A stretch of 42,257 nucleotides of DNA, from NCBI GenBank assembly GCA_903850885.1, contig CAINMU010000113.1, forward strand, positions 1 through 42,257, written 5' to 3'. The translations under genes and the position numbers were made by a program. This document shows positions 14,801 to 34,931 of this stretch, in pieces. How positions within the stretch are numbered: the first letter of the stretch is position 1; every line of letters begins with the position of its first letter. The notes below the pieces were generated by a model, which saw only the letters and a list, made by a program, of their open reading frames with translations, searched no databases and was not told the origin of the DNA. Origin of the DNA: an uncultured Opitutia bacterium. GTDB taxonomy: Bacteria > Verrucomicrobiota > Verrucomicrobiia > Opitutales > UBA953.

Positions 14801-14876
14801 GGCCTGATAGCTCAGTTGGTAGAGCAGACGCCTGAAGAGCGTCGTGTCGTTGGTTCGATTCCGACTCAGGCCACCA
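14801..14876 (+). tRNA. tRNA-Phe (GAA)
   Basis: Full cloverleaf: acceptor GGCCTGA pairs with TCAGGCC, D-arm GCTC...GAGC, anticodon stem GACGC/GCGTC with loop CTGAAGA (anticodon GAA), and T-arm GTTGG TTCGATT CCGAC. Discriminator A is at 14873 and CCA is encoded (14874-14876). A TTGACA hexamer at 14757-14762 is a plausible -35 element, though I see no convincing -10. Confidence 0.97.
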
Positions 14877-14938: not shown

Positions 14939-15691
14939 CTAGCGGTTAAACAGCAGCTTCCAGATGGAGAACCGATCCCCGCGGTCCAGCGCCTGAGCTG
15001 GGGTCGTCTCCTTGCCGAAGCCGGTAAGCGTGAGGACTCTCTGCTCTTCGTTCACTTTATCACCTTTGATGGATTTTTCGGCCCACTTGGCTTGGACGAC
15101 ACCAAAAGGGATGGTGTCATCTTTCCAGACGGTACCGCGAATGATAATCGTCTGTTTTTTGACGAAAGGCGGGTCGATGACGGTAAAGCATTCCATCTTC
15201 ATCCGGCTGCAAGTCCAAGATTTTTCTCCGAGTTTAATAAGCTCGGCGCTGGGATTGTCGGCTTCGAGTGTGTTCGTGTTTTTGTATCCAACCTTGTCGG
15301 ATAAGGATGCCACATCCTCGGGCAGCATGTGATAAGCGCCTTTGACCGGGTTCGAGAAAACGATTTCAGCGGCCGACTCGAGCAGCTTATTGGCCCCGGC
15401 CCGATCGAGTTTTTGCGGTAGCAGAAAGCGGAGCGGAGCTTTCTCTTTGGATCCCAGCCAAGCGATGGGTTCGATGGAGAGCCAGACATAGGGCTTTCCT
15501 GTGAGGGTTCCGCCGTCGCGAACCGAGAGTCGAATAGTCGTCAGCGAGGCCGGCTCATTCGGTTTGATGCCTTCAATCTGATAGGTGGCCCAGTGTCCTG
15601 GAGCTGGTAATTTTTCTGCAAAAATACTCCATTGGGCGGAGGCACTAATGATGCCCCAGCCTAAAGCGAGAAGAGGCAAGAAGAGCCGCAT
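14939..15691 (-). CDS. Secreted protein of unknown function
   Basis: 250 residues from the ATG at 15691, which gives a clean signal peptide (MRLFLPLLALGWGIISASAQ). The open frame extends further upstream to 15817, but that part is not signal-like and overlaps the cimA leader region. The mature part is beta-rich with GHWATYQIEG, PYVWLSIEPIAWLG and SWTCSRMKMECFTV stretches and no catalytic motif I recognise. It may be a periplasmic protein of lipocalin-like or other beta fold; this is a guess from the alternating hydrophobic pattern. It is divergent from cimA and stands alone on its strand. Confidence 0.65.
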   Translation of the reverse strand: MRLFLPLLALGWGIISASAQWSIFAEKLPAPGHWATYQIEGIKPNEPASLTTIRLSVRDGGTLTGKPYVWLSIEPIAWLGSKEKAPLRFLLPQKLDRAGANKLLESAAEIVFSNPVKGAYHMLPEDVASLSDKVGYKNTNTLEADNPSAELIKLGEKSWTCSRMKMECFTVIDPPFVKKQTIIIRGTVWKDDTIPFGVVQAKWAEKSIKGDKVNEEQRVLTLTGFGKETTPAQALDRGDRFSIWKLLFNR

Positions 15692-15757
15692 AGGGTGTTT
15701 TAAGCCATAATCAGGCTGATTTGGCGAGTCTAGTTCGGCCCGCAGGCACCTTTCCCT

Positions 15758-15786
15758 TTGACTCTCCTGGGGGATGGGTTTCAAGT
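15758..15786 (+). promoter_or_regulatory. Possible promoter of the cimA leader
   Basis: TTGACT at 15758-15763 (5 of 6 to the -35 consensus), 17 bases, then TCAAGT at 15781-15786 (3 of 6 to the -10 consensus). A transcript would start near 15793, just before the leader peptide ATG at 15800. The -10 match is poor, so this is tentative. Confidence 0.3.
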
Positions 15787-15799
15787 TTGCCTCACCTTC

Positions 15800-15889
15800 A
15801 TGGCAACCTTGGCACATGCTTCGACCTCCCTCCGCTTGGCGGATGGTCGTGCCATCCTGCCTTCGATTATTACCATCATCGGGCTCTGA
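15800..15889 (+). CDS. Putative isoleucine-rich leader peptide of cimA
   Basis: A 29-codon frame in the 290-base gap before cimA. It ends AILPSIITIIGL followed by TGA at 15887-15889. Five of its last eleven codons are Ile (atc 15854, att 15866, att 15869, atc 15875, atc 15878) and two are Leu. The gene downstream makes citramalate, the first step of isoleucine synthesis in organisms that use that route. Ile-rich leader peptides before ilv genes are a known attenuation device in enterobacteria. No ribosome binding site is visible, as for most genes here. The alternative is a chance short frame; its composition, position and the hairpins that follow argue against that. Confidence 0.6.
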   Translation: MATLAHASTSLRLADGRAILPSIITIIGL

Positions 15890-15960
15890 GCCCGCTGAAC
15901 GGAACGCCCGACGGGCGACTCCCCGTTCCGCGGCACTCGGAACGGCCCCCTCCCTTTACC
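15881..15960 (+). promoter_or_regulatory. Putative ribosome-mediated attenuator of cimA
   Basis: Three segments can pair in exclusive ways. Segment A CGGAACG (15900-15906) pairs with the CGTTCCG part of B (15924-15930). B, CCGTTCCG (15923-15930), also pairs with C, CGGAACGG (15938-15945), as a perfect 8-bp hairpin with a 7-base loop, followed by a C/T-rich run (ccccctcccttt). A small hairpin GGGCT-CTG-AGCCC (15881-15893) spans the leader stop codon. A ribosome stalled on the Ile codons (up to 15880) would leave A free to hold B. A ribosome that reaches the stop at 15887 would cover A and let B:C form. The tail after C is poor in T, so B:C may act as a weak terminator or may block translation. 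Confidence 0.55.
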
Positions 15961-15981
15961 CAACCTTCCACCTACACTACC

Positions 15982-17538
15982 ATGGCTCGCTCCATCGAAA
16001 TCTACGATACCACCCTCCGCGACGGCTCGCAAGGGCAGGGGATCCATTTCTCGGTCGATGACAAGCTGCGCATCGCCGCCGAGCTCGAGCGCTTTGGCAT
16101 GAATTATATCGAGGGCGGCTGGCCCGGGTCCAATCCGCGGGACGTCGAATTCTTCGCTCGTGCCAAGAAGATCAAGTTCAAGCATGCCAAGCTGGCAGCT
16201 TTCGGCTCTACGCGGCGGAAGGGCGTGCGTGCCTCCGAGGACGCTCAGGTGCGCAGCTTGCTCGAGGTCGATACCCCAGTCGTAACGATTTATGGTAAAA
16301 CTTCAGCGCTGCATGTCCGTGAAGTGTTGCGCTGTTCGCCGGAGGAAAACCTGGCGATGATCCGTGATACGGTGGCCTTTCTGAAATCCCATCGCCGCGA
16401 AGTCGTCTATGACTGCGAACATGCGATCGATGGCTGGAAGGAAGACCCGGCCTATGCGATCGCGACCATGCTTGCGGCCGTCGAAGGCGGGGCAGACCGC
16501 ATCGTGCTTTGTGATACCAATGGGGGCTCCTTGCCTGCCACCGTGGCCGCGGCCACGCGGGCGGTGTTGGCGGCTATGAAGGTTCCGGTCGGCATCCATA
16601 CGCATGATGACGCTGGGCTCGGCTTGGCCAACGCCCTTGCTTCGCTTGAGGCAGGTGCCTCGCACGTGCAAGGCACCGTCAACGGCATCGGCGAGCGGAC
16701 CGGTAATTGCGACCTCACCGCAGTCATCCCGTGCGCCCAATTGAAGTACGGCTGGAAATGCGTCTCATCGACCTCGCTCAAGGGCCTCGCCGGCCTTTCC
16801 CGTTTCGTCGATGGCGTCGCCAATCTCGCGCCTGATCCGCGGCGTCCGTGGGTCGGCACGGCAGCCTTCGCCCATAAGGGCGGCACGCACGTCGATGCGG
16901 TCCGTAAATTCTCGGCCGCCTATGAACACATCGACCCGACGGTGGTTGGTAATGAACGCATGGTGCTCGTGAGCGATCAGTCCGGACGGAGTAATATCAC
17001 GATGAAGGCGAAATCGTTGGGCATCGACCTCGACCGCGATTCACCGGCGACCAGTACCGCGCTGGATGAACTTAAGAAACTCGAGCATGCCGGCTGGAGC
17101 TTCGAAGACGCGGAAGCCTCACTGGCACTTCTGTTGCGCCGTCACTTAGGCAAGACGAAGACCGTTCCGTTTGAAGTGATGTCTTATCATGTCACTGCTC
17201 GCGGGGCTCGGGGCTCGGCGTACTGTGAAGCCGTGGTGCGGGTCAGCGTCGGCGGCAAGGAGTCGCTCACGGTGGCGGAGGGCGACGGTCCTGTGCATGC
17301 GCTCGACCAAGCTTTGCGTTCGGCTTTGGTAAAATCCTTCCCGAAAATCGCCAAGGTCAGTCTGGTGGATTATAAGGTGCGCATCTTAGGCGGCGCGGAT
17401 GGCACGGCCGCCAAAACCCGCGTGGTCATCCGTTCCTCGGACGGTAAGACGTCATGGGGAACGGTCGGTGTGAGCGAAAACCTCGTCGAAGCATCGCTGC
17501 GCGCCATCGTCGATGGTTATGCTTACGCTTTGGCCTGA
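15982..17538 (+). CDS. cimA: (R)-citramalate synthase
   Basis: 518 residues, the usual length. It condenses pyruvate and acetyl-CoA to (R)-citramalate, feeding 2-oxobutyrate and thus isoleucine without threonine deaminase. The ATG at 15982 matches the family start (IEIYDTTLRDGSQ, metal-ligand Asp9); the upstream open frame to 15721 is non-coding leader. The HMGL-like TIM barrel shows YIEGGWPGSNPRD, LCDTNGG and HTHDDAGLG (His206 and His208, metal ligands), with GERTGNCDL after it. AFAHKGGTHVDAV marks the communication region. The last 130 residues form the LeuA-type allosteric domain, the likely site of feedback by isoleucine. The combination with GWPGSNP and the long C-terminus points to CimA over LeuA or homocitrate synthase. 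It is preceded by a putative Ile attenuator. Confidence 0.92.
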   Translation: MARSIEIYDTTLRDGSQGQGIHFSVDDKLRIAAELERFGMNYIEGGWPGSNPRDVEFFARAKKIKFKHAKLAAFGSTRRKGVRASEDAQVRSLLEVDTPVVTIYGKTSALHVREVLRCSPEENLAMIRDTVAFLKSHRREVVYDCEHAIDGWKEDPAYAIATMLAAVEGGADRIVLCDTNGGSLPATVAAATRAVLAAMKVPVGIHTHDDAGLGLANALASLEAGASHVQGTVNGIGERTGNCDLTAVIPCAQLKYGWKCVSSTSLKGLAGLSRFVDGVANLAPDPRRPWVGTAAFAHKGGTHVDAVRKFSAAYEHIDPTVVGNERMVLVSDQSGRSNITMKAKSLGIDLDRDSPATSTALDELKKLEHAGWSFEDAEASLALLLRRHLGKTKTVPFEVMSYHVTARGARGSAYCEAVVRVSVGGKESLTVAEGDGPVHALDQALRSALVKSFPKIAKVSLVDYKVRILGGADGTAAKTRVVIRSSDGKTSWGTVGVSENLVEASLRAIVDGYAYALA

Positions 17539-21243: not shown

Positions 21244-21315
21244 TGTCCCCGGCAGGAATCGAACCTGCATTACCAGTTTAGGAAACCAGTGTTCTATCCG
21301 TTGAACTACGAGGAC
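21244..21315 (-). tRNA. tRNA-Arg (CCT)
   Basis: On the minus strand: acceptor GTCCTCG pairs with CGGGGAC (one G-T), D-arm GTTC...GAAC, anticodon stem CTGGT/ACTGG, loop TTCCTAA (anticodon CCT, reads AGG), and T-arm GCAGG TTCGATT CCTGC. Discriminator A is at 21244. The 3' CCA is not encoded, unlike the Phe and Val tRNAs in this window. Confidence 0.95.
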
Positions 21316-33335: not shown

Positions 33336-33412
33336 GGGGGTATAGCTCAGTTGGTTAGAGCGCCTGATTGACATTCAGGAGGTCGATGGTTCAAGTCCAT
33401 CTACTCCCACCA
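33336..33412 (+). tRNA. tRNA-Val (GAC)
   Basis: Acceptor GGGGGTA pairs with TACTCCC (one G-T), D-arm GCTC...GAGC, anticodon stem CCTGA/TCAGG with loop TTGACAT (anticodon GAC), and T-arm GATGG TTCAAGT CCATC. Discriminator A is at 33409, and CCA is encoded at 33410-33412. Confidence 0.97.
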
Positions 33413-34882: not shown

Positions 34883-34910
34883 AAAAGGCCGCCCAGTGGG
34901 CGGCCTTTTT
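34883..34910 (+). terminator. Rho-independent terminator of eno
   Basis: Perfect 12-bp stem aaaaggccgccc (34883-34894) with gggcggcctttt (34898-34909), loop agt, T5 tail. Its symmetry would let it serve the convergent gene at 34932 as well. Confidence 0.95.
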
Positions 34911-34931
34911 ATTGGTTTGATCGATGAGGTC

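Follow-up and report, generated by a model that had tools for sequence, protein, structure and literature searches.

One of the major routes by which bacteria make isoleucine runs through citramalate, and cimA, the citramalate synthase gene, stands at the start of isoleucine synthesis. What, then, controls cimA in a verrucomicrobial lineage? In the window analysed here, a stretch of 42,257 nucleotides from an uncultured Opitutia bacterium, a cimA encoding 518 amino acids (15982–17538, + strand; scoring 653 bits with TIGR00977, whose cut-off is 450) is preceded by a short reading frame, located between cimA and a divergently transcribed gene. A preliminary description of the sequence proposed that this frame and three short pairing segments behind it subject cimA to isoleucine-dependent attenuation. 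The models for such an arrangement are the ilv and leu attenuators of enterobacteria (ilvL, ivbL and leuL) and the trp paradigm, in which an end-product-rich leader is combined with four segments forming competing hairpins. The proposal proved largely right: with the readout set apart, the leaders and helices of the genus, together with independent Ile leaders in a second family and in the window's own order, make an isoleucine-responsive, ribosome-mediated attenuator of cimA very likely.

The leader frame, MATLAHASTSLRLADGRAILPSIITIIGL, runs over 29 codons (15800–15889, + strand) from an ATG at 15800 to a TGA stop at 15887–15889, and its five Ile among the last eleven codons are all present as first described. 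A search of 55 genomes from the genus, together with a species-level collection, gave 46 distinct full-length cimA upstream regions, most of the records being titled Opitutae or Verrucomicrobia MAGs. The leader is retained in 43 of them with its frame, Ile codons and stop position, nearly always with a length of 27 or 29 codons. The putative regulatory run, ATT ATT (ACC) ATC ATC at 15866–15880 (+ strand), keeps its Ile positions while ATT and ATC interchange; counting the stop as codon −1, Ile occupies codons −4, −5 and −7 in 41, 41 and 40 of the 43 leaders, respectively. The stop is found at the same place as TAA (26 leaders), TGA (13) or TAG (4), and length changes within the genus are in-frame only. 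A stop that is kept though its triplet varies, along with exclusively in-frame indels, is a signature of translation, so that codon and stop conservation argue for a translated leader carrying a codon run for the end product of the pathway. Further, in the last 15 codon positions of 33 distinct genus sequences, 164 Ile codons fall in the leader frame against 0 and 1 in the other two. Taken over its full length, the leader shows only a slight excess of synonymous changes (0.32 versus 0.28), which was not relied on as primary evidence; the signal is clearer in the last seven codons (675 of 1415). Three genus members (L096, L097 and L102) and a sister-genus sequence (L239) have cimA without the leader. 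This absence looks like a loss in one subclade, and L097 and L239 group together in the cimA tree.

The leader region folds more than chance would allow (z-score −4.0), and pairing scored on an alignment of 32 distinct genus sequences (A1) gave 98–99% paired positions for each of three helices, P1, P2 and P3, and for a hairpin nested in P2. P1, the hairpin of segments 1 and 2 (15880–15884 with 15890–15894, + strand; 99.4% paired), encloses the leader stop codon and has a single compensatory position, at which 2 sequences carry G-C instead of C-G. The antiterminator-like P2 joins segments 2 and 3 (15892–15895 and 15897–15902 with 15923–15928 and 15930–15933, + strand; 98.4% paired in the 32 relatives) through the arms CCGC-u-GAACGG (15892–15902) and CCGTTC-c-GCGG (15923–15933), most pairs of which are invariant; the small hairpin nested in it (15905–15908 with 15914–15917, + strand) has compensatory changes at three of its four pairs. 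P3, formed by segments 3 and 4 (15923–15930 with 15938–15945, + strand; 98.4% paired), is not followed by a T-run. The preliminary description had recognised P3 as its pairing of segments B and C, which is indeed 98% paired in the 32 distinct relatives. Its alternative pairing of A with B stood only in part. The window does contain the A segment CGGAACG (15900–15906), yet in that register two pairs hold in only 24 and 13 of the 32 relatives; the register belongs to a local repeat, GAACGGAACG, with a second half that is not conserved, and it was replaced by the arm 15892–15902. P1 is a structure beyond the three segments first described, and it competes with this arm. Because P1 and P2 share 15892–15894, the segments are arranged as in the four-segment trp and ilv attenuators, in which the 1:2 protector hairpin (15880–15894) overlaps the antiterminator arm, and the mutually exclusive antiterminator and terminator-type helices are kept in relatives. 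Segment 3 belongs to both P2 and P3 and has to match two partners, so little variation is expected, and both helices indeed hardly vary; covariation therefore says little for these two helices, and compensation is seen only in P1 and the nested hairpin.

How a ribosome on the leader might set this switch was addressed by folding with the ribosome-covered bases masked. A ribosome placed on the last Ile codon gave mean probabilities, over 38 sequences, of 0.86 for P2 and 0.11 for P3. With the ribosome at the stop, the corresponding figures were 0.01 and 0.81, which are partly built in because the A arm itself is masked. This agrees with the stall-or-stop logic that had been proposed, P2 being favoured in the stalled state and P3 at the stop. 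Without a ribosome the result varies by species, and the predicted switch is weak in some species, for example L024, L025 and L092. According to this scheme, scarce Ile-tRNA would stall the ribosome on the Ile codons at 15866–15880, melting P1 and freeing 15892–15902 to pair with 15923–15933; the resulting P2 would block P3, and cimA would be expressed. Under plentiful isoleucine the ribosome would reach the stop codon and cover about 15892–15900, so that segment 3 would be left free to pair with segment 4 as P3, and cimA expression would drop. Directly shown are the conservation of the frame and of its Ile codons, the exclusive pairing and the switch in the masked folds; that ribosomes stall in vivo and that P3 reduces expression is inferred.

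Two other explanations of the conserved region dispense with the ribosome. In one, the RNA would bind a ligand or a protein, and the short frame would be incidental. The sequences of segments 2, 3 and 4 scarcely vary and to that extent resemble aptamers; yet such invariance is expected wherever one segment pairs with two others, and an incidental frame does not account for three interchangeable stop codons, in-frame indels and Ile confined to a single frame, nor for Ile being kept in another family, f82, despite an otherwise diverged peptide. The Rfam leader families gave no match at the gathering threshold, nor at E 1 for 15700–16000, which likewise speaks against a binding element, and we consider this reading very unlikely. 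The other is chance, a short frame and weak hairpins that happen to fall in an intergenic region. Short frames with one Ile cluster do arise in 1.5–2.9% of Markov-simulated upstream regions, but conservation in 43 of 46 genus upstream regions and in the independent f82 set refutes it, leaving it with hardly any probability.

The attenuator of ribosome-controlled type has a sister element in f82, the family whose cimA is closest to that of this genus. A genus model, R1, scanned over 384 genomes of the class, found genus members and, as the best other match, a locus directly upstream of cimA in f82 (G439), which was the only R1 match at cimA outside the genus in those genomes. Weak R1 matches at L118 and L125 (both inside a thiamin-biosynthesis gene) and at L124 (coding-like sequence) were taken as chance. 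cimA is present in 34 of the 39 f82 genomes searched and, among the matches listed, is 56–64% identical to the cimA of the window. Nearly all f82 upstream regions of sufficient length contain (C/T)TGA(A/G)CG including the leader stop, then CCCCGTTCCG..CGGAACGGGG-TTTT, and then cimA. In 26 distinct f82 leaders the Ile counts per frame are 87, 7 and 7, with peptides that otherwise differ widely; 17 of 27 upstream regions have Ile clusters, where Markov controls lead one to expect 0.1, and Ile is alone among the amino acids in being enriched to such a degree. Pairing reaches 97.7% in the f82 terminator, which has two compensatory positions, and 91% in the antiterminator, whose covariation is no greater than in shuffles. 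Because the terminator dominates equilibrium folding, the nascent RNA was folded instead; before synthesis of the 3′ arm, a ribosome on the last Ile codon allowed the antiterminator to form in 18 of 22 cases and a ribosome at the stop in none, and it is only in nascent RNA that the antiterminator wins.

The f82 attenuators (L207–L236) share with those of the genus the Ile leader, the TGAACG arm, which starts about 20 nt 3′ of the last Ile codon, the hairpin with the core CCGTTCCG/CGGAACGG, and cimA. P3 is therefore the counterpart of the f82 terminator hairpin, having the same core. They differ in that f82 has a canonical terminator with a T-run and the antiterminator GTTTTC/GAAAAC, and the Ile cluster usually lies 6–7 codons from the stop in f82 as against 2 in the genus. 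A second model, R2, built on the f82 element with its terminator structure and run over 388 genomes of the phylum, gave matches that look mostly like generic, often bidirectional terminators and were not used.

The readout is where the genus departs from the classical scheme. The suspicion that the T-tail behind P3 is poor was right for all species of the genus, since none of the 43 sequences has a T-run immediately behind P3; a terminator hairpin followed by a U-tract is found in f82 and in f3, a family of the window's order. Classical intrinsic termination at P3 was accordingly rejected, and the earlier caveat that the readout may be translation stands. Canonical T-tailed terminators do occur elsewhere in the window. 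A bidirectional terminator, AAGGCCGCCC..GGGCGGCCTT with T-runs on both strands, lies between convergent genes at 34885–34915, and another at about 857–887. Between P3 and the cimA ATG the genus has instead a C-rich tract (15946–15981, + strand) with 21 C and no G in 36 nucleotides. The distance from P3 to the ATG ranges from 21 to 49 nt and is C-rich and almost G-free throughout the genus; in the last 30 nt before cimA, 37 distinct genus tracts average 0.32 G versus 5.2 in f82 and the order. Equilibrium folding, the only kind applied to this question, left the cimA start unpaired at 0.72 and 0.74 in the two states, which does not support a start codon occluded in one state only. As the U-tract is missing and start accessibility is unchanged, neither simple termination nor simple occlusion is directly supported.

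One rival reading takes translation as the step that the switch controls, with the same leader and the same helices, P3 cutting ribosome loading on cimA rather than transcription, and the C-rich G-free tract acting as a protein S1-type landing site for initiation without a Shine–Dalgarno sequence. The missing U-tract, the lack of such a sequence before cimA, the conserved unstructured G-free tract reaching up to the ATG, and the position of P3, 21–49 nt 5′ of the ATG and near the edge of a 30S footprint, all agree with it. The equal predicted accessibility of the cimA start in both states does not, and the closest homologous element, in f82, is an intrinsic terminator; we hold translational attenuation to be possible but doubtful. 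Alternatively, Rho could load on the C-rich tract and terminate early in cimA unless the state of the leader ribosome or P2 prevents it. A stretch of 36 nt containing 21 C but lacking G is unusual among the 20 window genes compared and is conserved in the genus, and Rho has been proposed to act on leader peptides that lack terminators and carry polyY tracts (PMC1262725). However, neither of the two predicted states sequesters the tract, and P2 and P3 therefore provide no obvious gate; it is also shorter than a typical rut site, and leuA of the same genome, which has no such leader, likewise has a C-rich 5′ region. Rho-dependent attenuation appears rather unlikely. We weakly favour premature transcription termination of some kind at or after P3, at about even chances; with no U-tract, it would probably be aided by Rho or by pausing at the C-rich G-free tract. 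Termination is also the likely ancestral readout because the f82 sister element is a classical intrinsic terminator, which suggests that an ancestral intrinsic terminator was altered into something else in this genus.

The history of the gene bears on this alteration. In a quick tree of 72 cimA proteins, made without bootstraps and having a long stem branch for the genus, the genus joins f82 (SH-aLRT 99) and stays apart from its own order, whose 16 proteins form a clade with support 100; forcing the genus into that clade is rejected (p-AU 8.6e-5). As cimA of the genus groups with f82 and not with its own order, the attenuator probably travelled with the gene. The most economical account is that cimA was transferred horizontally along with it, an old duplication followed by loss being a possible alternative. 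Whether an intact Ile attenuator of the terminator type accompanied cimA out of an f82-like lineage and in this genus lost its U-tract, kept the ribosome-controlled switch and gained the C-rich G-free tract as a new off-step is, in our judgement, evenly balanced. If so, that off-step would depend on Rho, on pausing at a hairpin or on translation, and the readout would have changed in nature while the sensor stayed as it was. The pair of genus and f82 offers a direct test of an attenuator keeping its sensor while its output changes.

Among known systems, leader-peptide control of ilv and leu genes is described in the open-licence full-text literature. The first description's remark that it had not seen such control of cimA in Verrucomicrobiota described agrees with those texts, in which a search found no leader-peptide attenuator of cimA and none in Verrucomicrobiota; subscription papers could contain one. 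With the enterobacterial ilv, leu and trp systems the present one shares a stalled ribosome choosing the antiterminator; unlike them it serves cimA alone, uses only Ile codons, has no U-tract after the last hairpin and is unrelated in sequence. The ilvB leader peptides of Corynebacterium, Mycobacterium and Streptomyces are short frames with Ile, Val and Leu codons (PMC1262725; PMC10272879; PMC11857589), alike in being a short frame before a branched-chain biosynthesis gene but differing in the gene (ilvB), the polyU terminators and the phylum. A further analogue is provided by the leader peptides of mycobacterial cys operons, for which Rho is suggested (PMC1262725). They too combine a conserved leader peptide, no canonical terminator and a pyrimidine-rich tract before the gene, but they concern cysteine and have no conserved alternative hairpins.

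Why should isoleucine alone be the signal? No TIGR01127 match to an ilvA-type threonine deaminase was found in the window's own genome, an identical search being positive in 14 of 14 control genomes; as the assembly is about 96% complete, this absence is not certain. cimA is hence probably the sole entry to 2-ketobutyrate in this genome, which would make isoleucine by itself a sensible signal. ilvB and leuA of the same genome have no branched-chain leader, and the Ile-specific logic is strengthened by this and by the missing ilvA. The attenuator would give the citramalate route an isoleucine-specific control in freshwater Verrucomicrobiota. Upstream of the leader, a −35-like TTGACT (15757–15762, + strand) goes with TTTGACTC in 43 of 43 leader-bearing genus sequences; the conserved TTTGACTC lies about 37 nt 5′ of the leader ATG (15757–15799), with no Shine–Dalgarno sequence. 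A consensus scan returned no full sigma-70 promoter; the TTGACT element may nevertheless act as one, with transcription starting a few bases 5′ of the leader ATG, and the leader mRNA may be almost leaderless. A minus-strand ORF at 14939–15817 overlaps the leader only via an unlikely upstream start; its real start is probably near 15691, with the signal-peptide-like MRLFLPLLALGWG, and it would hence be divergent to cimA. Rfam also places three tRNA genes in the window, at 14801–14873 (+), 33336–33409 (+) and 21244–21315 (−).

For other lineages the locus provides a search rule: a frame rich in Ile codons, followed at a distance of about 20 nt by an arm whose pairing competes with a hairpin. Across 191 further upstream regions of the phylum an Ile cluster occurs in 19 against 3.8 expected, and several families of the window's own order have Ile leaders before cimA. 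In family f3 a few genomes have ATTATTAC-type leaders and a strong terminator, CCCCGGGC..GCCCGGGG-TTTTTT or close variants; SHQLxLGLIIGxLIIS is kept in two genomes of family f4, and MASQxAIFxIRIIxGLLCA in three of family f11. A contig of f11 that also carries an Ile-leader cimA has an Acido-Lenti-1 RNA (RF01687) just above the gathering score (L045:652–714). In a different family of the order, the region upstream of cimA at L249 has the frame MNFLITAGQTKSISAEIISIII with its stop and then a CGCTCGC/GCGAGCG hairpin without a T-run, possibly another Ile attenuator devoid of a U-tract. Finally, in a record titled Chloroflexi bacterium (L108), a frame with Ile clusters (MTPAAASATIAIIWTRTSIIEG...) stands before cimA together with a AAGGCCTTCC..GGAAGGCCTTTTTT terminator.
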